A stretch of 21,594 nucleotides of DNA from Phycisphaerae bacterium (GTDB lineage: Bacteria; Planctomycetota; Phycisphaerae; Sedimentisphaerales; SG8-4), in NCBI GenBank assembly GCA_030603035.1, contig JAUVYQ010000029.1, forward strand, positions 1 through 21,594. The letters are read 5' to 3'. Under the pieces are notes generated by a model that was given only the letters and a program-made list of their open reading frames with translations, did not search any database and was not told the DNA's origin. The translations under genes and the position numbers were made by a program. The stretch's first letter is position 1. Every line of letters starts with the position of its first letter. This document shows, in pieces, positions 2,076-21,594 of the stretch.

Positions 2076-2162
2076 CTGAGTTCAGTAATGATAGAATGGG
2101 CCGATTAGCTTTTTTGCAGGTTTTTCGGTTTTTTTGGTTCCTCGACGCAGATATTCCTATAA

Positions 2163-2225
2163 TCAGCCGCTGATTTCCTGTACAAGTTTGCAAAACTTGT
2201 GGCCGCGGTGCTGGAAATTATCAAA
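2163..2225 (-). pseudogene. Displaced copy of the murD 3' end
   Basis: Read leftward, this encodes FDNFQHRGHKFCKLVQEISG and a stop, matching the C-terminus of the intact murD (FDNFQHRGQQFCKLVRQIVD, stop, at 2781-2843) at 14 of 20 residues. The DNA matches at about 48 of 63 positions with no gap. Homology stops abruptly just past the phenylalanine codon, where an in-frame TAA lies two codons upstream. The sequence between the two copies holds the MNT gene. It looks like a tail left behind when DNA was inserted at the end of murD. Confidence 0.75.
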
Positions 2226-2246: not shown

Positions 2247-2339
2247 TTAGCAGCCCGAATTAATAATAGCTCCTATGTGTTTTACGAACGCTTCAGCTTT
2301 AGAAATCCAGGGCAAGACCTGTGATTCTTTGAATCGCTC
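2247..2339 (-). pseudogene. C-terminal stub of a probable HEPN partner gene
   Basis: Immediately after the MNT stop, a different frame reads about 30 codons, including RFKESQVLPWISKAEAFVKHI and ending INSGC before TAA. The pattern (acidic or polar residues, VLPWI, KAEAFV, hydrophobic end) resembles the C-terminal helix of HEPN proteins that pair with MNT nucleotidyltransferases. The rest of the HEPN domain, including the expected Rx4-6H motif, is missing. Recognition rests on pattern only, so the family call is tentative. Confidence 0.4.
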
Positions 2340-2652
2340 ACAAAACTATCCCTTCACGTTCGACATTTTCATGAAACGGCATAGCTTTATAAAGGGGACT
2401 ATCCCATTCTTTTCGGCTGCGCACGATACAAGTAATAACTTCTCCATATTGCCATTCAATGTTGTAAAGTCGATGACGGACAGCATCTATACGTTCCTGG
2501 TCAACACTGCCATCTAACAAAACAAGAAAATCCCAATCAGATTCAGGCCCGGCTTCTCTGCGAGTTCGAGAACCATAAATTATAACATCTGCATCAGGCT
2601 CAATTCCAAGAATAGTTCGTTTGACTTGCTCAAGTAATCGTTCTCGATTCAT
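2338..2652 (-). CDS. Minimal nucleotidyltransferase (MNT-type antitoxin-like)
   Basis: The 104-residue protein has the polymerase-beta-fold nucleotidyltransferase signature: G27-S28 in IIYGSRTRREAG, followed by D39-W-D41 in SDWDFLVLL, the two metal-binding aspartates. The length and the ending (MPFHENVEREGIVL) fit complete MNT proteins. These usually form toxin-antitoxin pairs with HEPN RNases and in studied cases neutralise the toxin by AMPylation. Here only a stub of a possible HEPN gene follows, so the gene looks like an orphan. The ATG at 2652 has a weak GGGG-type ribosome binding site about 10 nt upstream. It lies between the intact murD tail and a displaced murD tail, implying acquisition. 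Confidence 0.85.
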   Translation of the reverse strand: MNRERLLEQVKRTILGIEPDADVIIYGSRTRREAGPESDWDFLVLLDGSVDQERIDAVRHRLYNIEWQYGEVITCIVRSRKEWDSPLYKAMPFHENVEREGIVL

Positions 2653-2780
2653 TTCAATTACTACCCCTATACGTCTAACTTGTTTCTTTCAGTAGATCGA
2701 CCATTCCAGCCAACTTACAACTTTATACCAGCTGTACAGCTTTGTCTACAACTTTTGCAATTTGAACTATACGCTAATAA

Positions 2781-4364
2781 TCAATCCACGATTTGGCGCA
2801 CGAGTTTGCAAAATTGTTGGCCGCGATGCTGGAAATTATCGAACATATCGTAGCTTGCACAGGCGGGACTTAATAAGACGACATCGCTGTTGACTGCAAG
2901 GTGAGCGGCCAATTGGACGGCTTCGGACAAGGAATCAACAATCTCGATTTGCGTATTGCGTGGTTTGAGATTGTTTCGTTCCGTCCAGGGGCCGGACTTC
3001 CAGCGCTTTGCTCCTCGCAATGACATCTTAGCATTATGTATTGCATCTGCGATTTTTGGGGCGGTCCGGCCGAGCAGGATAGCAGCTTTAGCGTTTTCGG
3101 CTATTTTTTGGCCGAGTTCATCGAAAGGTATATTCTTGTCATATCCGCCGGCAATGATAATCGTGGGCTGGTCAAACGCCTCCAGCGACGCAATCGCACT
3201 TTGCGGCGTGGTAGCTTTGGAATCATTGTACCACCTGACGCCGTGTATCTGAGCGACGAATTCGAGGCGATGAGGTAACGGCTTGAATTCCGGCAGGGAG
3301 CTTTTGAGCCGGTCATCGCCGGCGCCGAAATGCCTGGCAATGGCGATAGCGGCGGCGAGGTTTGAAAGATTAGCTCGGCCCGGCAAGGAAAAACCACTGC
3401 GAATTTCTTCACTCACATCGTCAGTTGAAAATTCGATACAAATTCTACCGGCCTCTGTCTTGTATTTTTCAAACCATTCGGCGCCGATTTTATCTTCGGC
3501 ATTGAAGATAGAAACAGCAGGAAAATCTTTGTCCAGCTTTTGAAACTTGAAGATGTTTTCCTTGGCGGCACAGTAATCGGCGAACGTGCCGTAGCGGTCG
3601 AGATGGTTTGGGGTAAGATTTGTTAAGAGTGCAACTTTCGGTGCCTTTTGCCCCGCACCAATTGATGTTTGTCGTGGATATTGCTTATTACCGGAGCGTT
3701 GTCCTTTTGATGAGAGACAATTGGTGCGGGGTAGTGCTAATTGCTCAAGCTGAAAGCTCGACAGTTCGAGAACAACCAAATCATCAGGAGCGATTTGGTT
3801 CAGGGCAGTCAGTAACGGCTCGTTGCCGATATTGCCGCTTAGCCAAACGTTTTCGTATTGCGTATTGCGTATTGCGTATTGCGTGTTTTGAGATTGCTTC
3901 GCTTCGCTCGCAATGACATTTTTATTGATGCTGGAGTTTTTACTGAGCGCAAGGTTCAGTAGGTGGGTGGTCAGGGCGGCTGTTGTGCTTTTGCCGTTTG
4001 CCCCTGTTATGCCGATTATCGGCGCAGGACACAGCTCAAAAAAGATGCTTATCTGGGACGTGATGAATTTTTTGTGCCGGCGGGCGAGTTCGAGAAACTC
4101 ATTATCAAGGGCAACTGCGGGATTGGCTACGATAATGTCGGCTTGCTGAAAATCGGCAGGGTCGTGTGAGCCGAGATGGAATACAATATCAGGAAATTTT
4201 TGGAGCCGGCTTATAGAATCGCACAACTGCTCGGCTGAAGCTAAATCCGTTACTATTACTTTTGCACCGGCTGTATGTGCAAATTCAGCGACATCAGCTC
4301 CGCCGCCGAACCGTCCCAGGCCCATAATTAAAACTTTTTTGCCGGCGAAAAATTCCTTTTTCAT
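2781..4364 (-). CDS. murD: UDP-N-acetylmuramoylalanine--D-glutamate ligase with three repeat-derived insertions
   Basis: MurD adds D-glutamate to UDP-MurNAc-L-Ala in the cytoplasm during peptidoglycan synthesis. Visible motifs are an N-terminal Rossmann glycine motif (GLGRFGGGAD, 15-24), the ATP loop GITGANGKST (118-127), ELSSFQLE (200-207), NLTPNHLDRYG (249-259), the PHRLEF and YNDSKATTP motifs (364-387) and C-terminal SPACASYDMFDNF (499-511). At 527 residues it is some 70 longer than usual. The excess comes from three in-frame inserts: about residues 149-171 (VIASEAKQS then NTQYAIRNTQY), 212-238 (from an 81-bp palindrome) and 447-473 (SLRGAKRWKSGPWTERN). All lie between motifs, so activity is plausible. 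Its ATG overlaps the pyrF stop (ATGA), so the pair is translationally coupled. Confidence 0.92.
   Translation of the reverse strand: MKKEFFAGKKVLIMGLGRFGGGADVAEFAHTAGAKVIVTDLASAEQLCDSISRLQKFPDIVFHLGSHDPADFQQADIIVANPAVALDNEFLELARRHKKFITSQISIFFELCPAPIIGITGANGKSTTAALTTHLLNLALSKNSSINKNVIASEAKQSQNTQYAIRNTQYENVWLSGNIGNEPLLTALNQIAPDDLVVLELSSFQLEQLALPRTNCLSSKGQRSGNKQYPRQTSIGAGQKAPKVALLTNLTPNHLDRYGTFADYCAAKENIFKFQKLDKDFPAVSIFNAEDKIGAEWFEKYKTEAGRICIEFSTDDVSEEIRSGFSLPGRANLSNLAAAIAIARHFGAGDDRLKSSLPEFKPLPHRLEFVAQIHGVRWYNDSKATTPQSAIASLEAFDQPTIIIAGGYDKNIPFDELGQKIAENAKAAILLGRTAPKIADAIHNAKMSLRGAKRWKSGPWTERNNLKPRNTQIEIVDSLSEAVQLAAHLAVNSDVVLLSPACASYDMFDNFQHRGQQFCKLVRQIVD
2945..3024 (-). repeat. Repeat insertion 3 in murD (58-bp repeat plus heptamers)
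   Basis: Bases 2967-3024 are a copy of the repeat at 17404-17461, in opposite orientation, with 55 of 58 bases identical. It abuts heptamers CGATTTG, CGTATTG, CGTGGTT at 2945-2965. It encodes about residues 447-473 of MurD without breaking the frame. Confidence 0.8.
3651..3731. repeat. Repeat insertion 2 in murD: 81-bp palindromic element
   Basis: CCCCGCACCAATTG (3651-3664) and CAATTGGTGCGGGG (3718-3731) form a perfect 14-bp inverted repeat around 53 nt. The element is exactly 81 bp (27 codons) and lies between LEQLA and KVALLTNL, where MurD proteins normally have only a few residues. Confidence 0.75.
3854..3917 (-). repeat. Repeat insertion 1 in murD: four CGTATTG units plus GCAATGAC repeat
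   Basis: Four perfect 7-nt units (3854-3881) run directly into a short GAGATTGC...GCAATGAC repeat (3890-3917). In the murD frame the two blocks read NTQYAIRNTQY and VIASEAKQS. Confidence 0.85.
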
Positions 4365-6295: not shown

Positions 6296-6330
6296 CGTAT
6301 TGCGTATATCGTATATCGTATTGCGTATTA
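6296..6330 (+). repeat. Five CGTATNN heptamers in the yebC leader
   Basis: Units in register: CGTATTG, CGTATAT, CGTATAT, CGTATTG, CGTATTA. They lie between the TATAAT box and the AAGGAGCAGG ribosome binding site of yebC. Confidence 0.85.
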
Positions 6331-7120: not shown

Positions 7121-7165
7121 ATCCGAATATCGAATATCGAAATCCGAAACAAATTCGAAATTCAA
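7121..7165 (+). repeat. AATCCGAATATCGAA-type A/T-rich repeat
   Basis: A run of degenerate units (ATCCGAATATCGAATATCG, AAATCCGAAAC, AAATTCGAAATTC) fills the gap between the convergent yebC and O-antigen ligase genes. Similar fragments recur near 9550-9575 (AAATTCGAAATTC). No terminator hairpin was recognised here. Confidence 0.5.
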
Positions 7166-7207: not shown

Positions 7208-9472
7208 TTATGGAGTTGGTTTCTGGGAGAGCTGTTCAAATCGCTGTTTTCTCTGTTTTGCGTTCTGGTATTTTTCCTCTCCTAATCTGCTGAATATTTC
7301 CTCCTCCTCGGGATACATTTTCTCAAACTGGCGGCGATATTTATCTTCGATATTGATTGCTTCTTCATACTGTTTGATGGCAATATCGGTTTTGCCAAGC
7401 TGCTCGGCGATTTTGGCTAATTCGATTCGCAGTCGGCCGGAGCCGGGATAATGCTCAACGGCAAGCAAAGCATTATCAAAAGCTTCATTCAGGTAATCGA
7501 CCTTTTTGTGCGGGGTAGAGGCGTCCGCAAGCAGGTTGTAGACCTCGGCCAATCGTTTGAAATTCTTAAAGTCGGCCCTGTTGCGCTCAATTGCGGCGAG
7601 AAAACATTCTTCGGCCTGCTCGAGCAAAAGCGGCTGATTCCTTCCGGTCTCTTTGTAATGCTGTAAATATAGTCTGCCATTCAAATTCAACGCTGCCGGG
7701 TCCAATCGGTCATCTTCAGCCGCCTCATCTAAAAGCTGGTGCGCATGTCCAAGCTCTCGCAGTGCCAGCTCGGTCTTTGCAGCAGCTTTAGCTACGGGGA
7801 TGAGAGCGTAATTAAAATAGGCCCAAACCAATACTAAGGAGACTACAACCCCTATCGCTTTTACAAAAGGTGCAGGTTTTAGAACGACCTGGGTGCGGGA
7901 CTTTTGGTGGAAGTCTAATGCGATTAGACAAGCTATTATTGCCCAAAAAGTAGTAAACACGCCCGGCTCAAAAATGGCAAAGTCTATCAAGTTGTGCAAA
8001 ATGATGCCTAAACAAGCGCAAAAAAGAGCGGCGGCGATGATATTCGTATTGCGTATTGCGTATTGCGTATTGCGTGCTGTGTTTAATGGTGATGTAAGAA
8101 GGAGAAAGGCAATGATAAAAACAGCCACGGGCGCAACGTATAATGTCACTATCACATAAATCATCACATCAAGAGTATTGCCATCTGTTACGGGCATAAT
8201 CATCGGTCTGATAAGGAGCAAGGCGGCGGATATGACAATTACGAAAGGTATGGCGAGTTTTGTAAAAGCCGGCTCACGCTGATGAGGTTTCGGCGAGAGT
8301 AAAGCAGACTTACGAGACACTGCTCGCCATAACGGTATCGAAACAAGGGCTAAAAATCCTATAAGGCCGAGTGGGCCATATTGAGTAAGGATGCTGAGCA
8401 GAAAATTATGGGGGTCTGCAACGGTTTCGAGGGCTTCGGCGGGTTTGTAATGGGTATAAAAATGTGCGAAGTTGCCCGGGCCGACACCTGTGATGGGATG
8501 GTCGGCGTACATCTTAGCCGATGCGTGCCAATACTGCCATCTGACGAGCATTGAGCTGCCGCCCGGCAATTCGCCGTGATTCAATCTATACTGAATAACC
8601 GCGCAACCGGCGGCGAGGGCCAATAGCAGGCAAACAATGAATATGGCTTTTTTGTGGGCTTTTAACCAGTTGCCAAATAAAAGGTAGATAACAAACATTG
8701 CCGCGGCAATTAGTGATGCGGTGATTGCTCCTTTGCTTTTGGTAATAGCAAGGCCGAAAATAATAACAGCGACCGCAATGCCGCAAGTAACAAGCGCTTG
8801 AGAGCCGGATGCATCGGATTTGCGATTTCTGAATTTCTCCAGGAACAAAGCGATACCGGCAAAAGACGCCAGCAATGAGAACGAGCCGGCTGAATTACGC
8901 GTTGTAAAAAAGCCGCGGACTCCCTTTGTATAAAGACGATGTTCAAAAAGAAATTGGGCAAATGTGCCTGGCTGTATGCCAAGCGGCTCAAGCAGGGTTT
9001 GTGGGGCCTTTTCATATTCGTCAATCATTGCCTGGTTTGTAACGAAAAGCTGATTAGCAGATTCATAGGCCGATACCACACCCAAAGCGGCGATAACAAC
9101 AAGCAGCAGTTTGATTTTTGAATGCGAGTCCAATATCTGTACCAGCAGGACGGCCATTAGAATTGGGGCCAGCAGCGTTACAAAGTTAGTGATTGCGGCC
9201 CGCTTGTTTGCAGCGGCAAGGCCGGCGACGATAGCAGCTATTGCGAAGATAGCCAGCCCGACTTCTATGGCGGTGAAACGATATGAAAATCTTTTACTGC
9301 AAAAGCCCCACACAAACCAAACGACAAACGACAATATCAACACAGCCGATACGGCTAAACTGTAAACGCTGTCGCTCAGATTGGCCGACTTCGTAGCAGG
9401 GCTTTCGGCAAACGTTGTTCGAAGTGCGATTACGCAAAGGCAGAGGGCAAGCAGGACATATTCGAAAATCAC
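7208..9472 (-). CDS. O-antigen ligase family (Wzy/WaaL-like) membrane protein with C-terminal TPR domain
   Basis: A polytopic inner-membrane protein with about a dozen hydrophobic segments. The conserved Wzy_C region reads GVGPGNFAHFY followed by ADPHNFLLSILTQYGPLGL, typical of enzymes that ligate or polymerise surface polysaccharide on the outer face of the membrane. The last 200 residues are hydrophilic helical repeats of TPR type (LNLNGRLYLQHYKE, AFDNALLAVEHYPGSGRL, TDIAIKQYEEAINIE). I prefer the GTG at 9472, which has AAAGG upstream. Starting at the GTG at 9529 would add 19 residues encoded almost entirely by heptamer repeat. A second heptamer block is in frame at about residues 465-476, in a loop between membrane helices. 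Downstream of the WecA-like gene, which would supply the lipid-linked sugar. Confidence 0.85.
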   Translation of the reverse strand: MIFEYVLLALCLCVIALRTTFAESPATKSANLSDSVYSLAVSAVLILSFVVWFVWGFCSKRFSYRFTAIEVGLAIFAIAAIVAGLAAANKRAAITNFVTLLAPILMAVLLVQILDSHSKIKLLLVVIAALGVVSAYESANQLFVTNQAMIDEYEKAPQTLLEPLGIQPGTFAQFLFEHRLYTKGVRGFFTTRNSAGSFSLLASFAGIALFLEKFRNRKSDASGSQALVTCGIAVAVIIFGLAITKSKGAITASLIAAAMFVIYLLFGNWLKAHKKAIFIVCLLLALAAGCAVIQYRLNHGELPGGSSMLVRWQYWHASAKMYADHPITGVGPGNFAHFYTHYKPAEALETVADPHNFLLSILTQYGPLGLIGFLALVSIPLWRAVSRKSALLSPKPHQREPAFTKLAIPFVIVISAALLLIRPMIMPVTDGNTLDVMIYVIVTLYVAPVAVFIIAFLLLTSPLNTARNTQYAIRNTNIIAAALFCACLGIILHNLIDFAIFEPGVFTTFWAIIACLIALDFHQKSRTQVVLKPAPFVKAIGVVVSLVLVWAYFNYALIPVAKAAAKTELALRELGHAHQLLDEAAEDDRLDPAALNLNGRLYLQHYKETGRNQPLLLEQAEECFLAAIERNRADFKNFKRLAEVYNLLADASTPHKKVDYLNEAFDNALLAVEHYPGSGRLRIELAKIAEQLGKTDIAIKQYEEAINIEDKYRRQFEKMYPEEEEIFSRLGEEKYQNAKQRKQRFEQLSQKPTP
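8045..8079 (-). repeat. Four CGTATTG heptamers inside the O-antigen ligase gene
   Basis: Perfect units at 8045-8072 followed by CGTGCTG. In the gene frame this reads ARNTQYAIRNTN, a polar stretch between two membrane segments. Because the unit is 7 nt, gain or loss of one unit would shift the frame. Confidence 0.85.
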
Positions 9473-9489
9473 CTGGCCTTTGCTTTTCT

Positions 9490-9524
9490 CGTATTGCGTA
9501 TTGCGTATTGCGTATTGCGTATTA
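9490..9524 (-). repeat. Five heptamers at the 5' end of the O-antigen ligase gene
   Basis: Four CGTATTG units plus CGTATTA, in register. They lie just before the preferred GTG start (9472) and inside the longer alternative reading frame from 9529, so they are either leader or repeat-encoded N-terminus. Confidence 0.85.
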
Positions 9525-9571
9525 ACCACGAAACTTCACGAGTAATACTAATAAACTCAAAATTCGAAATT

Positions 9572-10606
9572 CTAAACGGTAGTTTCGAAAATAGCGATAA
9601 TGGCCAATATCATAAACGTTTGAATGAAAATTAGAATTGCGCCGGCGAGATTAACCTGATAGAGGAAAGTTGCGCCCAGGCCGGTGCAGAGCGTAGCCAG
9701 ATATAACGTCAGAACCGTCTGGGTGTCGCTCAATCCGTGCTTTTTTAATCTGTGGGAGAAGTGCTGGGTGTCGCCGACAAACGGGCTTTTGCCCTGGCTT
9801 ATACGCAAAAGGGTTACGCTGATAAAATCATACAGTGGGACCGCCATAACGACCAACGGCATAAAAACCGAATACCATTGTCCGCTTTGGGCTTCTTGAT
9901 AATAGGTGGTGCGGAGCGTCAAAAGTGCAACGAAAAAGCCCACGACGAGCGAGCCGGCGTCACCCATAAAGATTTTGGCGGGCGGGAAATTGAACACCAA
10001 AAATCCTAACAATGTCCCTATGAAAACAATTGCCAGGCCGCCAACAAAGACCTGGGCACTTAAGGCGGCTGCGGTGAATAAAATGCAGCTTGCTATGACT
10101 GCGATGCCGGCGGCCAGGCCGTCCATATTGTCAAGAAAGTTGAAGGCGTTAATAATCAAAACTATCCAAACGGCTGAAAGAACGGTGGTGATTATTTTGC
10201 TTTCAATAAAAAACTCAATGCGAATATCCGCAACGGCGGCGGCGATTATTGCAACTGCAAACTGAACGCCAAGTTTGAAAAACGGGCCAAGATGTTTTTT
10301 GTCGTCCCATAGGCCGAGCACAAACAAGACGAAGACGCAGAGCAGCACAATCAGAAGCTGGCCGATTTTGTTTAAGAAATCAACAGGGTCAATATTAGCG
10401 GTTTGGGCGAGCGGTTCAAGATAACCGGGAAGAACTTTTATTGCGGCTGTGGCAGCGAGGATGAAAACCATTAGTGTGGTAAAGATTGCGATACCACCGC
10501 CGAGCGGGACGGATGCTTGTGCAAATCTGTCTTCAGCCGGATGCGCGACGAAGTCGGCGCGAGCGGCCAGCTTTCTTACGACGGCTGTTAAGATGACCGA
10601 CAGCAC
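9572..10606 (-). CDS. WecA/MraY-like polyprenyl-phosphate sugar-1-phosphate transferase
   Basis: A multi-pass membrane enzyme that moves a sugar-1-phosphate from a UDP-sugar to undecaprenyl phosphate, the first step of O-antigen or exopolysaccharide synthesis. Motifs: HPAEDRFAQ and PLGGGIAI near the N-terminus, WDDKK (100-104), NAFNFLDNMDGLAAG (153-167), FMGDAGS (213-219) and HFSHRLKKHG (282-291). The final His-rich loop is that of WecA/TagO-type rather than MraY-type enzymes. The listed GTG start leaves a short first membrane helix. The frame stays open upstream (ETLTILATILLAGSF) with no ATG, GTG or TTG, but an ATC at 10654-10652 has GGAG 8 nt before it. The real start may therefore be upstream and overlap the DUF4416 gene. 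Confidence 0.88.
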   Translation of the reverse strand: MLSVILTAVVRKLAARADFVAHPAEDRFAQASVPLGGGIAIFTTLMVFILAATAAIKVLPGYLEPLAQTANIDPVDFLNKIGQLLIVLLCVFVLFVLGLWDDKKHLGPFFKLGVQFAVAIIAAAVADIRIEFFIESKIITTVLSAVWIVLIINAFNFLDNMDGLAAGIAVIASCILFTAAALSAQVFVGGLAIVFIGTLLGFLVFNFPPAKIFMGDAGSLVVGFFVALLTLRTTYYQEAQSGQWYSVFMPLVVMAVPLYDFISVTLLRISQGKSPFVGDTQHFSHRLKKHGLSDTQTVLTLYLATLCTGLGATFLYQVNLAGAILIFIQTFMILAIIAIFETTV

Positions 10607-11184: not shown

Positions 11185-11219
11185 AGGTAGTTTTGAGTTT
11201 TGAGTTCTTAGTTTTCGGG

Positions 11220-15221: not shown

Positions 15222-15917
15222 ATGAATCGTCCAAAGATTTTCTCGATGGCTCTAGTTGCTATTCTGCTCGGAACGCTGGCGTATGCTTCTAAAATCCAGC
15301 GACTGGAGTTGGCAAAGTTACCTGCTCGTGCCGAGGTTATAGCCTTGGCAAAGGTACTGAGGGTGGAGGAAAAATCATTAGACTCTCGAGTGCCTGCACC
15401 ATATGACGAAGTCACCATAATGGTGGCATCTGTGCTAAAGGGAAGTATCAAACAAGGTGAGATTAAAGTTATTTTACAGCCTCGGGGTTTAAAAGGTTTT
15501 GATCCCGTGCTTAAGGTCGGAGATATTGGTGTCTTCTTCCTCCGAGAGGTTAGCGAATCAGAAGCAAAGCTGGCATATTGGGGCAGTGTTGCTGTCTTTC
15601 AAAAACTGAATTTCGCAGTCTCAGAGAAACCTAAAGAGCAACAGCTCCGGGAGAATCACACTGACTGGATAAGCGAATGCATGAAGTGTATTCAATTTAT
15701 TAAGCCAGGGGCGACTCGCGGCGAACTTCTTGAGGTGTTCACGACCGAAGGAGGTATCTCTACCAGGTTGTGGAGAAGGTATGTTTATAGACAGTGCCCA
15801 TACATCAAGGTGGACGTTGAATTCAAAGCGGTAGATGATGACAAGTGGACCGAGAAGCCCGGGGATATAATCACTAAAATTTCCAAGCCATTCTTAGAAT
15901 GGTCCATTATAGATTAG
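15222..15917 (+). CDS. Secreted protein of unknown function
   Basis: 231 residues with a clear signal peptide (MNRPKIFSMALVAILLGTLAYA, cleavage likely before SK). The exported part has a strand-rich segment (YDEVTIMVASVLKGSIKQGEIKVI), DPVLKVGDIGVFFLRE, and a region with a C-x-x-C pair (ECMKCIQF). The first half resembles proteins that report adhesion or OB-like extracellular folds (KVLKGxxKxGxxI...V...GDxxxFFL), but I cannot name the family. An excellent ribosome binding site (AGGAGGTGAAACT) precedes the ATG. It lies 54 bp after the YhaM-like gene and may be cotranscribed with it. Confidence 0.7.
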   Translation: MNRPKIFSMALVAILLGTLAYASKIQRLELAKLPARAEVIALAKVLRVEEKSLDSRVPAPYDEVTIMVASVLKGSIKQGEIKVILQPRGLKGFDPVLKVGDIGVFFLREVSESEAKLAYWGSVAVFQKLNFAVSEKPKEQQLRENHTDWISECMKCIQFIKPGATRGELLEVFTTEGGISTRLWRRYVYRQCPYIKVDVEFKAVDDDKWTEKPGDIITKISKPFLEWSIID

Positions 15918-16042: not shown

Positions 16043-16212
16043 TCATAACTCAATTCTGCGTTGCACGGCTTTGTCCGCCGTGCTGTTGATACGTATCGAC
16101 TATCCTGAAGCGAATTAGCTATGTTTTTGTCGCAACTGTGACAACGGTATGTCACACCTTGTGAAAAAATCCACAAATCAAGCGGGAATATTGCGATTCT
16201 CGTCTCTCGTTT

Positions 16213-16240
16213 AACGAACAACGAGCAACGAGCAACGAAA
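16213..16240 (+). repeat. Four AACGAGC-type heptamers
   Basis: AACGAAC, AACGAGC, AACGAGC, AACGAAA in register, ending 7 bp before the stop of the leftward gene. Same 7-nt period as the CGTATNN arrays but a different sequence. Confidence 0.7.
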
Positions 16241-17614: not shown

Positions 17615-17654
17615 ATTGATGGGCGGGGCCTTTGGGCTTATAATTACCGTCGAG

Positions 17655-18935
17655 ATGCGAAACAGAGCTAAAATATATACGGTCAGCCAGGTCAATGCGC
17701 TAATCAAAGTAGTGCTCGAAGAGAGTCTGCCTCCGCGATTGATAGTGCGGGGCGAAATAAGCGGCTGGAAACACCACGCAAGCGGGCACTGTTATTTTTC
17801 GCTAAAAGACGAAAGCGGAATACTGCCGTGCGTTATGTGGGCGAGCAAGTTCAGAAATGTCAAGTTTTTGCCTGAGGACGGAATGGCGGTACTGGCAACA
17901 GGTCATATCGATGTTTATACAGTTGGGGGTAAGTATCAGCTTTATGTCGATAAGCTGGAGCCGGAAGGTGTTGGCGCGCTGCAGTTGGCTTTCGAACAAA
18001 TGTATAAACGGCTCAAAGCGGAAGGGCTGTTTGAGGAAAAATACAAAAAGCTGCTGCCGCCGTATCCGGAAAGAATCGGGATATTGACCAGCGAATCGGG
18101 GGCGGCGGTGCACGATATAAAAGACAGCATTCACAACCGCTGGCCGTGCACCAGATTGTTTCTCTATCCGGTGCCAGTCCAGGGTGAAGGAGCGGCGGAG
18201 AAAATCGCAGCGGCCCTTAGAGATGTGAACAGGCGCAACAAGGAGCTTAAACTCGATATTTTGATTGTCGGGCGGGGCGGCGGGTCGCTGGAAGATTTGT
18301 GGGCCTTCAATGAAGAAGTTTTAGCCAGGGCGATTTTCAATTCGAAAATACCTGTCATAAGTGCGGTCGGTCACGAGGTTGACACCACAGTCGCCGATTT
18401 GGTTGCCGACGCCGGGGCATCGACGCCGACAAAAGCCGGTGTTGTCGCAGTTCCGGATATGCAGGAAGTCTTGGAGCATATTGACAATCTCAAAAAAAGG
18501 TTGGGGTCCCAGCTCAAGTTCCTCATCTACAGCGCGGAACAACAATCTGATGAGCTGTGCATCAGACTGGAAAGTTTAGTAAAACAATTGCTGGCCGAGG
18601 CACGTGCAAAGCTGCACGCTGCTTTCCAGCAGATTGTAAAGATTGAGCCGCATTGGCTCTTGGGAAGGAAAACGGTCGATGTAAATAATTTGAAAAATCG
18701 GGCAAATGCAGCAATAAGGGCAATCATTAACAAAGCTCGGATGCAGCTTACAGCGAAGGAGAATCTGTTGGCCGGCTTGAACCCAAAATCGGTTTTGCAG
18801 CGGGGATACAGTATCACCTCCAACAAAAAGACCGGCCTGCTAATAAAATCTTCAGAGGATGTTAAAATCGGAGATTTATTAATTACCGAGCTTGCAGAGA
18901 AAAATTTGATTGAAAGTAAGGTAACAAAAAAGTAA
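17655..18935 (+). CDS. xseA: Exodeoxyribonuclease VII large subunit
   Basis: Catalytic subunit of ExoVII, which degrades single-stranded DNA from both ends to oligonucleotides. About 426 residues: OB-fold at 20-105 (IVRGEISGWKHHASGHCYFSLKD), then the catalytic domain with LPPYPERIGILTSESGAA (134-151), ILIVGRGGGSLEDLWAFNEE (202-221), the GHEVD motif (239-243) and ASTPTKAG (255-262), then a long coiled-coil (about 270-390) that binds the small subunits, ending LQRGYSI. The start is uncertain: ATG 17655 gives the usual distance to TVSQVN, whereas ATG 17619 would add 12 residues. Neither has a strong ribosome binding site. xseB follows after a repeat-filled gap of about 210 bp instead of the usual tight coupling. 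Confidence 0.94.
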   Translation: MRNRAKIYTVSQVNALIKVVLEESLPPRLIVRGEISGWKHHASGHCYFSLKDESGILPCVMWASKFRNVKFLPEDGMAVLATGHIDVYTVGGKYQLYVDKLEPEGVGALQLAFEQMYKRLKAEGLFEEKYKKLLPPYPERIGILTSESGAAVHDIKDSIHNRWPCTRLFLYPVPVQGEGAAEKIAAALRDVNRRNKELKLDILIVGRGGGSLEDLWAFNEEVLARAIFNSKIPVISAVGHEVDTTVADLVADAGASTPTKAGVVAVPDMQEVLEHIDNLKKRLGSQLKFLIYSAEQQSDELCIRLESLVKQLLAEARAKLHAAFQQIVKIEPHWLLGRKTVDVNNLKNRANAAIRAIINKARMQLTAKENLLAGLNPKSVLQRGYSITSNKKTGLLIKSSEDVKIGDLLITELAEKNLIESKVTKK

Positions 18936-18944
18936 AAAGAATTA

Positions 18945-19130
18945 AGCCACAGATGAACACAGATTGACACAGATTAAATAAAAGGAAAAAGGAAAAAAGA
19001 AAAAGCCACAGAGGTCACATAGGGAAATGAAAAATAATATATCTCAAAGAACGATTTAATATTCTCTCTGTGTTCTCTGTGCTCTCTGTGGCTAAAAAAC
19101 AAGAAATATAAATCTGTGAAATTTGTGGCT
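18945..19130. repeat. Nested CACAGA palindromes between xseA and xseB
   Basis: Inner pair: AGCCACAGAG (19004-19013) with CTCTGTGGCT (19084-19093), perfect over 10 bp. Outer pair: AGCCACAGAT (18945-18954) with ATTTGTGGCT (19121-19130), 9 of 10. Direct copies of CACAGAT and of TCTCTGTG surround them. The element would separate xseA from xseB on the mRNA. Confidence 0.75.
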
Positions 19131-19148
19131 AAAAATAAAAAGGATAAA

Positions 19149-19397
19149 ATGATGGCGGAAAAAAAGCAAAAAAATGATATCGGCAAATTGGGCTTTGAAG
19201 AGGCAATTAAGGAGCTTGGCAGTATCGTCGGCAGGATAGAGCAGGGCCAAATTCCATTGCAGGACAGTCTCAAGCAGTATGAAAGAGGGATGGCCCTGAT
19301 TAAGCATTGTCGGGCAATATTAGAAAAAGCCGAGAAACGGATTGAGAAGATAACAGAGCCAGACGAAAAATCTCAAAAACGCACGGACAGCGAATAG
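19149..19397 (+). CDS. xseB: Exodeoxyribonuclease VII small subunit
   Basis: 82 residues, normal for XseB. Core LGFEEAIKELGSIVGRIEQGQIPLQDSLKQYERGMALIKHCRAILEKAEKRIEKI forms the two-helix structure that packs on the XseA coiled-coil and is needed for ExoVII activity. Start at ATG 19149 (or the adjacent ATG at 19152), preceded by AAGGAT; an upstream GTG at 19116 would read through repeat DNA. The last 20 codons, the stop and 57 bp beyond are duplicated 1426 bp downstream, next to tRNA-Leu, with one mismatch in 119 bp. Confidence 0.92.
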   Translation: MMAEKKQKNDIGKLGFEEAIKELGSIVGRIEQGQIPLQDSLKQYERGMALIKHCRAILEKAEKRIEKITEPDEKSQKRTDSE

Positions 19398-19454
19398 GAG
19401 AAAGCGAAAAACGCAATACGATATACGCAATACGCAATACGATATGCGAGCGTG
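19336..19454 (+). repeat. 119-bp direct repeat, copy 1 (xseB tail, heptamers, first 9 nt of tRNA-Leu)
   Basis: Identical to 20762-20880 except for one base (A at 19399, G at 20825). It covers the last 20 codons of xseB, its stop, the heptamer array 19407-19448 and GCGAGCGTG, which are the first nine bases of the tRNA-Leu gene in copy 2. Confidence 0.95.
19407..19448 (-). repeat. Heptamer array (minus-strand CGTATNN) within direct repeat copy 1
   Basis: On the plus strand: AAAAACG, CAATACG, ATATACG, CAATACG, CAATACG, ATATGCG in 7-nt register. The matching array in copy 2 is at 20833-20874. Confidence 0.85.
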
Positions 19455-19531
19455 ACGGGCAGGATTTAGGGCGGAGCAAGCGTTGGGTGTATTGGCCAAT
19501 ATCAGGAGGTTTTTTTGAAAGGGATGGAGAA

Positions 19532-20719
19532 ATGGAAAAGAAAAATTTAGTAGTTTGGGTGATAGGGGCAGTGCTGACAGTTGCCGGGGTTTCTAAGGGT
19601 GTTAACGCAGATGCCGGGCCTGAAATTATTGCCGGCCCATATCTGCAACATGTAACACAGACCAGTATGACCATCATGTGGGAAACGGCTCAGCCATGCA
19701 CATCTGCGGTCGAATACGGTGAAGCCGAGTGGGTGAAGAAAGGCCAACCTGTACCGTTGAAAAACCTCATCGAGGAAGATGAAAAGAAAACGATCCATGA
19801 GCTCGTCCTGAAGGGACTGAAGGTTCAGACCAACTATTTGTATCGTGTCAGTTCTGTGGACGATGATGCCGCAAAGGTGGCATCAGAGATATATACCTTT
19901 CAGACGGCTGTGCGCAAGGACTCGCCCTTTGCATTTGTTGTAATAGGTGATAACCGCACGTACCCGGAGCGATTTGCAAAAATCATCGCACGGGCCTGGG
20001 CGGAGCGTCCCAATTTTATGCTGAACGTGGGCGATGTGGTAACTGATGGGAACGTCAAGGAGCAATGGCTTGATGAGTATTTAAGGCCTGCGGCCGAGTT
20101 GATGAGGCGGGTGCCGACCTACGTAGCCATCGGCAACCATGAGAGGGATGCGGATTGGTACTACAAATACGTTTCATATCCCAAGCCGGAAAACTATTAT
20201 TCATTCGACTACGGCAATGCACATTTTGCGATTATTGATAGTAACAAAGACCTCTCGCCAAATAGTGAACAGTACAAGTGGCTGAAAAAGGACCTGGCCA
20301 GGTCCAAAGCACGCTGGAAATTTGTGCTCCATCACCATCCGCCGTATAGTTCTGATGAGAACGATTACGGCGATACCTATAGAGGTAAATCCAGGTTGGG
20401 AGATATGAATGTAAGGCAGTTGGTGCCGCTTTATGAAAAATACAAGGTAGACATTGTTTGGTATGGCCACATCCACGACTATGAGCGGACCTGGCCTATC
20501 AGAAATGGCAAAGTTGACCGGAAGAGGGGGGTAATCTACATCCAGACAGGCGGCGGTGGAGCGGAACTTGAAGACTTCGCTCCCACCCGCAGTTGGTTCA
20601 CTGCGAAGGTGTTGCGTAATTGGCAGTATTGCCTTGTTGCCGTTCACGAGGAAACTTTGCGAATGATGGCCTATGATATTGATGGCCGGATGTACGACTA
20701 TCTGGAGCTGAAAAAATAG
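19532..20719 (+). CDS. Secreted purple-acid-phosphatase-like metallophosphoesterase
   Basis: 395 residues with a signal peptide (NLVVWVIGAVLTVAGV core, cleavage near VNA-DA). Residues 30-128 form the fibronectin-like N-terminal domain of purple acid phosphatases (GPYLQHVTQTSMTIMWET, YRV, YTFQT). The calcineurin-like catalytic domain has all metal motifs: GD 139-140, GD 167-168 (NVGDVVTDG), GNHE 201-204, HHH 267-269 (FVLHHHPPYS) and GHIHDYER 312-319. It probably releases phosphate from organic esters in the periplasm or outside. ATG 19532 is the first start before the signal peptide. A strong AGGAGG at 19504-19509 instead serves an out-of-frame TTG. The gene lies entirely between the two 119-bp direct repeats, so it appears to be a recent insertion between xseB and tRNA-Leu. 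Confidence 0.9.
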   Translation: MEKKNLVVWVIGAVLTVAGVSKGVNADAGPEIIAGPYLQHVTQTSMTIMWETAQPCTSAVEYGEAEWVKKGQPVPLKNLIEEDEKKTIHELVLKGLKVQTNYLYRVSSVDDDAAKVASEIYTFQTAVRKDSPFAFVVIGDNRTYPERFAKIIARAWAERPNFMLNVGDVVTDGNVKEQWLDEYLRPAAELMRRVPTYVAIGNHERDADWYYKYVSYPKPENYYSFDYGNAHFAIIDSNKDLSPNSEQYKWLKKDLARSKARWKFVLHHHPPYSSDENDYGDTYRGKSRLGDMNVRQLVPLYEKYKVDIVWYGHIHDYERTWPIRNGKVDRKRGVIYIQTGGGGAELEDFAPTRSWFTAKVLRNWQYCLVAVHEETLRMMAYDIDGRMYDYLELKK

Positions 20720-20761
20720 TCTGCGACAAAGGAAAAGAATTAATCGCAGAGAACGCAGAGG

Positions 20762-20880
20762 AACGGATTGAGAAGATAACAGAGCCAGACGAAAAATCTC
20801 AAAAACGCACGGACAGCGAATAGGGGAAAGCGAAAAACGCAATACGATATACGCAATACGCAATACGATATGCGAGCGTG
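20762..20880 (+). repeat. 119-bp direct repeat, copy 2 (displaced xseB tail, heptamers, 5' end of tRNA-Leu)
   Basis: 118 of 119 bases match copy 1. Bases 20762-20823 encode a headless copy of the last 20 residues of XseB plus its stop; 20872-20880 are the true first bases of tRNA-Leu. Confidence 0.95.
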
Positions 20881-20956
20881 GCGGAATTGGCAGACGCGCA
20901 AGGTTTAGGTCCTTGTGTCCATTATGGACGTGGAGGTTCGAATCCTCTCGCTCGCA
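20872..20956 (+). tRNA. tRNA-Leu (anticodon UAG)
   Basis: An 85-nt cloverleaf with a long variable arm. Acceptor GCGAGCG (20872-20878) pairs with CGCTCGC (20949-20955), discriminator A. The anticodon stem CAAGG/CCTTG encloses loop TTTAGGT with anticodon TAG at 20906-20908. The variable arm is the GTCCA/TGGAC stem, and the T arm contains GGTTCGAATCC. The CCA end is not encoded. It would read CUA and, by wobble, other CUN leucine codons. The direct repeat and its heptamers abut the 5' end exactly, so the tRNA promoter must lie within repeat or insert DNA. Confidence 0.97.
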
Positions 20957-20989
20957 GTTTTTATAAAGAGTTAGGAAAGGAAACAAGAG

Positions 20990-21508
20990 ATGAAACACCA
21001 TCAAACCAGAAGACAATTTCTAAAAACTATGGGTCTGGGCGCAGCATCACTGGCAGCGCCGAAATTAGTATTCGCTGCAGAAAAGCCAATACAAAAGCCA
21101 AACGTGATATTGTACGTCGTGGACGACCACGGCACCGATGATGCAGGCTGTTACGGCAATCCTGTAATTAAAACGCACGGCCTCGATATGCTCGCCCGCG
21201 AGGGGACACGATTCACCCACGCTTTCTGCACCACTGCAAGCTGCAGCGCCAGCCGCTCGGTAATACTCACAGGACTGCACAACCACGCCACCGGCCAATA
21301 CGGACATCAGCACGGATACAGTCACTTCGTCAGCTTCCCGAATGTTAAGAGTCTGCCGGTGTTGCTGGCCGATGCAGGATACAGAACAGCATCGGTGGGC
21401 AAGTATCACGTGGCACCCGAAGAAGTTTACCACTTCCAGCAGTACATCAAGAACACTAACCCGCATTTCTCACAGCACCAGTTGAAAAAAGCTCCTTTTC
21501 TGGTATAA
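20990..21508 (+). pseudogene. Sulfatase interrupted by an insertion sequence (N-terminal fragment)
   Basis: Encodes the first 150 or so residues of a type I sulfatase. It begins with a twin-arginine signal ([25 protein letters not shown]), followed by [14 protein letters not shown] with the metal-binding aspartates, and the formylglycine motif C85-S-A-S-R89 followed by VILTG. The run [22 protein letters not shown] resembles heparan N-sulfatase-type members. Family members usually have about 450-500 residues. Here homology ends near FQQYIKNT (about 21455), and the frame then runs through insertion-sequence DNA to a TAA at 21506. The remaining metal and substrate residues are lost, so the product should be inactive. 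33 bp downstream of tRNA-Leu. Confidence 0.8.
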
Positions 21509-21547
21509 CTTGTTTAGAAAAAACAAGTTAACAAAAAGAAAAGGAGC
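21491..21547 (+). promoter_or_regulatory. Hairpin masking the transposase ribosome binding site
   Basis: GCTCCTTTTCT (21491-21501) pairs perfectly with AGAAAAGGAGC (21537-21547). AACTTGTTT (21507-21515) pairs with AAACAAGTT (21521-21529) around an AGAAA loop. The 3' arm contains the AGGAG for the ATG at 21554. Transcripts entering from the sulfatase would fold the site away. Confidence 0.65.
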
Positions 21548-21553
21548 AATACA

Positions 21554-21594
21554 ATGAAAACACACTGTAATCAAAAAACCCTCGAATTTCAAAC
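21554..21594 (+). CDS. Transposase, N-terminal fragment (IS1380-like)
   Basis: Thirteen codons are visible, MKTHCNQKTLEFQ, before the window ends. IS1380-family transposases commonly open with MKT/MKA, a Cys and an LEF/FEF motif, which is why I suggest that family. AAAGGAGC lies 7 nt upstream, inside the hairpin arm. Confidence 0.55.
   Translation, partial: MKTHCNQKTLEFQ

Follow-up and report, generated by a model that had tools for sequence, protein, structure and literature searches.

A phosphatase gene probably inserted with a long target duplication between xseB and tRNA-Leu in a planctomycete of the order Sedimentisphaerales

Gene gain in bacteria is mostly ascribed to recombinases or to homologous recombination in shared flanks, and the illegitimate movement of single genes without a transposon is an under-studied route. 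Tandem duplication with captured filler DNA, by paired nicks or template switching, is known mainly from plants and animals. Insertion with long target duplication was reported for Helicobacter pylori (Nobusato et al. 2000, Gene 259:99-108); in the passages that refer to it, it frequently involves restriction-modification genes (PMC1643837, PMC3031569, PMC3154945, PMC4978471) and the target duplications are called long and variable (PMC3031569). In PMC2869330, transposed single genes of Arabidopsis are described as lying between direct repeats, mostly of genic sequence, whose homologue is the unoccupied target site in a sister species; the authors there favour tandem-repeat recombination and circle reinsertion over target duplication. 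Here we analyze a contig of 21,594 bases from a Phycisphaerae bacterium (JAUVYQ010000029.1; the whole of this stretch is called the window), in which a phosphatase gene lies between xseB and a tRNA-Leu gene and is bracketed by two copies of the junction of these genes. The phosphatase gene is probably a recent insertion with a long target duplication, and the same architecture, target duplication around small gene modules, recurs at several other genes of the lineage, as judged from sequence comparison.

Relatives are designated below by our own numbers, G062 and G063 being the closest genomes found. The features of the locus are the following.

17616..18935, + strand: xseA, exonuclease VII large subunit (PF02601, E 5e-87), the anchor for finding relatives
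19149..19397, + strand: xseB, exonuclease VII small subunit, intact (PF02609, E 3.1e-22 on the 19116-19394 reading; start at 19149 set by eye)
19336..19454, + strand: duplicated target copy 1, with the xseB tail, the spacer and the first 9 tRNA-Leu bases (118/119 against copy 2)
19423..19441, + strand: 7-base-periodic array enclosed in copy 1 (in copy 2, 20849-20867), with one 7-base unit fewer in G063
19455..20761, + strand: inserted DNA, 1307 bases, missing at the equivalent site of G062 and G063
19532..20719, + strand: the cargo, a purple-acid-phosphatase-like metallophosphoesterase of 395 aa (PF00149, E 4.4e-21, and PF16656, E 5e-11, on the 19487-20716 reading)
20762..20880, + strand: second copy of the duplicated target, running into the intact tRNA-Leu (118/119 against copy 1; single copy in G062 and G063)
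20871..20957, + strand: tRNA-Leu (TAG) (ARAGORN; Rfam RF00005, 53.5 bits)

The identity of the two copies, 118 of 119 positions, is far beyond chance at such a length. The sole mismatch (A at 19399, G at 20825) splits the repeat into perfect blocks of 63 and 55 bases, and a repeat-family search of the window returned the pair starting at 19336 and 20762 as a 137-base family at 96% with a spacing of 1426. Each copy opens with the terminal 62 bases of xseB, which comprise 2 bases, 19 sense codons and the stop codon; it continues across the spacer and ends in the 5' start of tRNA-Leu, that is, its first 9 bases by the Rfam start (20872) or its first 10 by the ARAGORN start (20871); the Rfam match is complete. 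The original prediction had picked out this pair and its content from the letters, and alignment confirms both, its 20 codons of xseB including the stop. Both genes are intact because each retains a full copy of its end, xseB in copy 1 and tRNA-Leu in copy 2. A decayed second tRNA at the left end of the insert was considered (19455-19531 against 20881-20989) and rejected, since its score of 17 was matched by 304 of 2000 shuffles.

Within the 1307 bases the phosphatase gene, which includes a purple-acid-phosphatase N-terminal domain, is the only gene-like open reading frame (ORF), and a Pfam scan of the insert ORFs gave no recombinase, transposase or integrase match in the unit. Transposons and insertion sequences leave a short target duplication of fixed length and have terminal inverted repeats; the duplication here is 119 bases, and none of the inverted pairs listed for the window (25 of 38) joins the insert ends. 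Integrative elements that target tRNA genes have an integrase and an attachment site at the tRNA 3' end, and only the first 9-10 bases of the tRNA are repeated here. The original prediction had made the same three points: a unit free of integrase, a duplication too long for transposition and the involvement of the 5' rather than the 3' tRNA end.

Related loci were found by a search with xseA, which, when extended to 161 genomes of the order Sedimentisphaerales, gave a match in 137; by xseA G062 (93%) and G063 (81%) stand closest. Each of these two has xseB, a single copy of the junction and an intact tRNA-Leu without the phosphatase gene. The order xseB-spacer-tRNA-Leu, predicted as ancestral, is thus seen in relatives, not all of which carry both copies. 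Aligned with the junction of G062, copy 1 agrees at 116 and copy 2 at 115 of 119 positions. Two substitutions are common to both window copies and missing from G062 and G063, and one change is private to copy 2. The shared substitutions imply that the duplication would have arisen in the window lineage after its split from G062, or would have come from that same lineage. Together with the empty single-copy site of G062 and G063, they indicate that the 1307 bases and the 119-base duplication were gained recently in the window lineage, as the original prediction had it. A wider sample of 39 loci gave a distance of 262-821 bases from the xseA end to tRNA-Leu in 23 of them (20 of the 30 from the order, 3 of the 5 nearest and 0 of the 4 remoter ones), against 1936 bases in the window; the other 16 loci have no tRNA in the available stretch (0.1-1.5 kb after xseA in order loci), and an insert is there neither shown nor excluded.

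Relatives of the phosphatase are common, 895 proteins matching at E <=0.001 among 5436 candidates. Among the matches listed (120 of the 895), identity is 79-94% in P0002-P0008, which come from metagenome contigs, and 70% in P0010, which is Omnitrophota by its source label. Within the order, a match at E 1e-60 was obtained in 8 of 161 genomes, all of them 50-53% identical and G062 and G063 not among them; ten remoter genomes (five labelled Omnitrophota, five planctomycete) gave none at E 1e-60 in a search that is weakly informative. The composition of the insert was unhelpful as a sign of foreign origin, with a GC content of 48.9% (window 47.5%) and a third-position GC of the phosphatase gene (0.563) within the range of its neighbours. 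A 106-base query from the left flank of the insert matched 21 of the 161 order genomes over 22-59 bases, none of them a donor, and viral contigs gave no match to the phosphatase or the junction. The near-unit-length contigs of P0002, P0004, P0006 and P0008 were considered as free forms of the unit and dropped, as the 1.19-kb gene itself sets that minimum.

A second case of this architecture is found in the window, at the tail of an ORF that we take to be murD, a name given without a family search.

2781..4364, - strand: murD, host gene of the second case (ORF; relatives aligned)
2777..2843, - strand: copy 1, the murD tail (78% over 67 bases against 2159-2225)
2338..2652, - strand: the cargo, an MNT-type nucleotidyltransferase of 104 aa (PF01909)
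2159..2225, - strand: copy 2, an orphan murD tail (single copy in G012, G034, G016 and G015)

The nucleotidyltransferase has a weak, sub-threshold match to the MntA antitoxin family. The counterpart insert of G062 comprises a PF01909 gene and a HEPN gene (PF05168), an arrangement that presumably resembles the MNT/HEPN toxin-antitoxin pairs. The insert in the window is about 290 bases shorter than that of G062 and most of the HEPN partner is gone, the HEPN gene having probably been lost. Eleven genomes were searched for this site, and ten loci from nine of them were aligned: the murD tail is single, the site being empty, in G012, G034, G016 and G015, double in G062 and G063 and seemingly double in G021, with G020 and G014 not judgeable.

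Further cases were sought by a scan for direct and inverted repeat pairs in 1.396 Mb of G062. Pairs with more than two further matches were excluded (15 of 39 direct and 3 of 4 inverted pairs), leaving 24 direct and 1 inverted low-copy pairs. By our judgement 12 of the direct pairs are insert-like, 10 are paralogous or internally repeated and two (L177, L242) are doubtful; nine of the insert-like pairs were read in sequence and three (L220, L225, L234) were assessed by coordinates only. The repeat covers a 3' gene end in six of the 12 (one ends 10 bases short), a 5' end in one and intergenic or unassigned sequence in five. Among the 10 set aside is a pair of 318 bases at the starts of two prepilin-like genes on contig C17, about 180 bases of it non-coding. 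Two adjacent genes of G062 end in the same 57 bases at 93% (L179:8077-8133 and 10396-10452); the shared end, which we assume to encode a dockerin-like C-terminus, was set aside as paralogous domains. The pairs of L217 and L247 (96-98% identity) stand outside the 24, and a pair in L005, presumably within a repeat-rich RHS-type gene, was set aside as unrelated.

As controls, 80 xseA loci of many phyla were scanned (1.288 Mb), a set with same-order loci in it and contigs down to 3 kb. They yielded 10 low-copy direct pairs and 1 inverted pair, and three of the direct pairs (L023, L055, L073) are insert-like as judged by coordinates only. The contrast between 12 insert-like pairs per 1.396 Mb and 3 per 1.288 Mb has a binomial probability of 0.025, computed post hoc. 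In 400 kb of G034, of the same order, there are two direct pairs, each enclosing an ORF; one is possibly insert-like, and one spans two separate ORFs that are perhaps paralogous.

We tabulated 12 cases with duplication lengths of 53-235 bases, two rows of which, at an HD-domain gene, are probably one event. The insert runs in the direction of the host gene in 10 of the 11 cases that have one (9 of 10 if the HD rows are merged), the case of L171, without a host gene, being outside this count. A YkuD gene in G063 is enclosed by repeats of the final ~30 codons of the HD-domain gene (741-851 and 1688-1801 of L125, 85%). The same tail is also duplicated in G062 (94 bases, 84%), where it encloses two genes; no second HD tail was found in the window. 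The tail of clpB in G062 (122 bases at 94%) brackets an aspartyl-protease-like gene, copies of the tail of an MBL hydrolase gene bracket a DUF4258/DUF2283 pair, 53 bases of the tail of a flavin reductase/rubredoxin gene bracket a Cys/Met-metabolism PLP enzyme gene, and a 71-base spacer at 99% brackets genes with M78 peptidase and DUF4411 domains. In older cases of the same architecture the copies are 78-94% alike. No recombinase and no restriction-modification family was matched in a Pfam scan of the inserted ORFs across the cases, and no motif common to the junction sequences was seen by eye. Behind the HD-domain gene of the window there is a 231-residue ORF without a Pfam match (15222-15917), at a place where G062 and G063 carry other genes and the tail copy; the locus is perhaps an insertion hot spot.

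Several of these sites are empty in relatives. The site upstream of a gene that we take to be rpsP is single-copy in five of eight genomes, by alignment in G063, G020, G033 and G034 and by coordinates in G021, the remaining three being not decisive. Between the flavin reductase/rubredoxin gene and its neighbour, presumably a G6PD-like gene, there is a single copy in G020, G021, G033 and G014 and, by coordinates, in G034; G063 has the insert, and G012 and G016 gave no match to the host gene. The site at a gene assumed to encode a response regulator is single-copy in G021. Some of the cargo is found elsewhere. The PLP enzyme gene and the flavin reductase/rubredoxin gene are separated in G034, in G033 and, by 16 kb, in G014; in G012 and G016 the PLP enzyme gene lies at a locus without that host gene. 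A gene that we take to be EamA-like is on a contig other than that of the MBL gene in G020 and G021, and in G062 it comes after the MBL tail copies. Its C-terminus in G062 reads QQHLKPVSTNNNNTGKST, against QQHLKQPK in G020 and QQHLRRNVPE in G021, and is encoded inside the third MBL tail copy (46 bases at 83%). At the G062 locus that matches the EamA neighbours of G020, a different gene, presumably miaA, holds the EamA-like position; with about 40% of G062 read, a second EamA-like gene in that genome is possible. The MBL locus of G062 (L159:1483-3945) has three tail copies with genes between them, and in that of G020 the DUF2283 gene and a tail copy are already present and DUF4258 is absent, so that the genes at this locus seem to have been added stepwise.

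How could such a structure arise? We envisage an event independent of any recombinase, in which DNA synthesis or a broken end would leave the target just inside tRNA-Leu, the departing end would join foreign DNA carrying the phosphatase gene, and it would then rejoin the target 119 bases upstream. The rejoining may involve microhomology-assisted template switching, or else a long staggered break that is filled in and joined without Ku. Once formed, the two copies could recombine, and the unit would be lost precisely or excised as a circle. Duplications at gene ends may be the survivors, because there the gene stays whole. Neither Ku nor reverse transcriptase was found in the drafts of G062 and G063; Ku occurs in 7 of 161 order genomes and reverse transcriptase in 4 of 15 genomes. 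As far as these drafts show, this speaks against Ku end joining with fill-in and against target-primed reverse transcription, and the likeliest origin is then template switching or another joining reaction that needs no Ku, at a long staggered break that captured DNA. The duplication lengths vary and no motif shared by the junctions was seen by eye; neither fixed-length transposition nor tRNA integration nor integron cassettes match this pattern.

A different origin was proposed in the original prediction, namely that a circle carrying the phosphatase gene and one junction copy integrated by a single homologous crossover. It yields exactly the product observed, and circle insertion is what PMC2869330 proposes for transposed Arabidopsis genes with flanking repeats. 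The proposal finds no support as an origin, however. The circle must already hold the junction, and at each further locus it must hold that locus's own target, of which at least five different ones are duplicated in the lineage. The two window copies share lineage-specific substitutions, so that the donor must be of the same lineage, and the origin is merely shifted to another cell, where it stays unexplained. We consider this account unlikely for the phosphatase locus; a circle could nevertheless spread an insert once it has formed. That the insert lies at a tRNA gene, between near-perfect repeats, would also suit a mobile or integrative element that is not autonomous, is moved by an integrase acting in trans and uses the 119 bases for attachment. 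Such an element is very improbable in view of the tRNA end that is repeated and the lack of a recombinase match in the unit, and in the other cases unrelated protein-gene ends or spacers are used and the repeat lengths differ.

Direct repeats are the usual mark of tandem duplication, and a region that ancestrally held the phosphatase gene might have been duplicated or rearranged and the gene lost elsewhere. We find this hardly credible: xseB directly precedes tRNA-Leu in G062 and G063, tRNA-Leu lies close behind xseA in 23 of the 39 loci examined, and a phosphatase match at E 1e-60 is present in only 8 of the 161 order genomes, at 50-53% identity. An assembly artefact has to be considered since the window is one whole contig of 21594 bases. 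It is most improbable, because the mismatch limits the perfect blocks within the repeat to 63 and 55 bases and because the older cases, with their diverged copies, come from independent assemblies.

Recent insertion with a long target duplication thus remains the explanation that we prefer, and several observations weigh against it. No flanked donor sequence for the phosphatase gene was found in the order genomes and viral contigs searched. The enrichment of insert-like pairs over the controls is modest, and it is tentative since the comparison was made post hoc and against short contigs. Direct pairs outnumber inverted ones outside the lineage too, by 10 to 1 in the controls as compared with 24 to 1 in G062; the ratio alone therefore proves nothing, and it is the single-copy empty sites that bear the argument. 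G062 and G063 are drafts and only the nearest genomes, and the absence of Ku and reverse transcriptase from the genome of the window is not certain. Finally, the two rpsP copies of G062 are not simple sisters. Copy 1 agrees with G063 at 76 of 81 positions and with copy 2 at 71 of 81, copy 2 agrees with G063 at 73 of 81, no substitution is common to both copies against all relatives, and at two sites copy 2 agrees by eye with G020 and G034. This pattern suggests that an older duplication was precisely undone in G063 by recombination of the copies, or that the donor brought the second copy, and it favours the circle to the extent that the latter stays open as a means of spread.

A bolder possibility is that genes are captured recurrently in this planctomycete lineage, by a dedicated or strongly facilitated process that works without transposase, integrase, Ku or reverse transcriptase. 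Single genes and toxin-antitoxin-like pairs would be copied or moved to the ends of host genes, 50-235 bases would be duplicated each time, the host gene would survive, inserts could be stacked as at the MBL locus, and 7-base arrays would perhaps be hot spots of breakage or switching. We regard this as doubtful. The window has nine 7-base-periodic arrays in 21.6 kb, G062 has 100 in 1.396 Mb and G034 has a single one in 400 kb; in the spacer array, G062 and G063 are one unit apart. Of the tabulated cases, the two with the most similar copies, the window xseB and the G062 response regulator, have an array within their repeats, and at 2 of 12 cases a possible association between arrays and insertion is a lead only. 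The arrays of the window are at these positions.

3854-3884, 6303-6321, 7124-7141, 8045-8075, 9490-9523, 11189-11206, 16219-16238, 19423-19441, 20849-20867

Arrays also occur in frame in murD (2781-4364) and in a 773-residue ORF (7208-9529), giving peptides with NTQYAIRNTQYE or NTQYAIRNTN, and murD holds stretches of a dispersed GTCATTGCGAG-type repeat as well; these short repeats look as if they had been inserted into coding sequence. Two other features of the window were noted. The intergenic positions 16124-16169 (46 bases) are 91% identical in G034, and lie within a longer stretch that aligns with G062; next to a C39-peptidase-like gene, they include the palindrome TGTGAC...GTCACA and may be a conserved operator. 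At 21490-21594 the end of a sulfatase ORF forms, by eye, an inverted repeat and is followed by the start of a new ORF, MKTHCNQKTLEFQ; there is probably an insertion sequence at this end of the contig.

The empty sites and the relocated cargo, the PLP enzyme gene and the EamA-like gene, make testable a third route of gene gain, illegitimate insertion with long target duplication. If common in planctomycetes, this route would help to account for the vehicle-free movement of single genes and of toxin-antitoxin pairs. The signature that it leaves in a genome, a foreign gene followed by a repeat of the tail of the host gene, is simple and easily missed in annotation, and a literature search found no paper, by title, on this duplication pattern in planctomycetes.

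Among known systems, integron cassette arrays are similar in that single genes pile up behind a gene, as at the MBL locus with its three tail copies. Unlike in integrons, the repeats here are local host sequence that differs from locus to locus, and there is no integrase match in the scanned inserts. Tandem duplication with filler DNA resembles the present cases in the variable length of the duplication and in the inserted DNA at the joint. The transposed genes of Arabidopsis, as PMC2869330 presents them, share relocated genes and genic direct repeats at the flanks, in a eukaryote. The closest likeness is to the H. pylori insertions, where, in the passages cited above, a gene-sized insert faces an empty site in a relative and long direct target duplications flank it. 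At xseB the site is empty in G062 and G063, the duplication is 119 bases and the length varies from 53 to 235 bases among the cases; to this we add a point of our own, that the insert holds the phosphatase as its sole gene-like ORF. An association with restriction-modification genes, frequent and not required in H. pylori according to the passage in PMC1643837, is not seen: the cargo is a phosphatase gene here and toxin-antitoxin-like pairs and metabolic genes in relatives. Also unlike H. pylori, the host lineage is planctomycete and several cases fall within that one lineage. The phosphatase locus probably belongs to the known kind of insertion with long target duplication.

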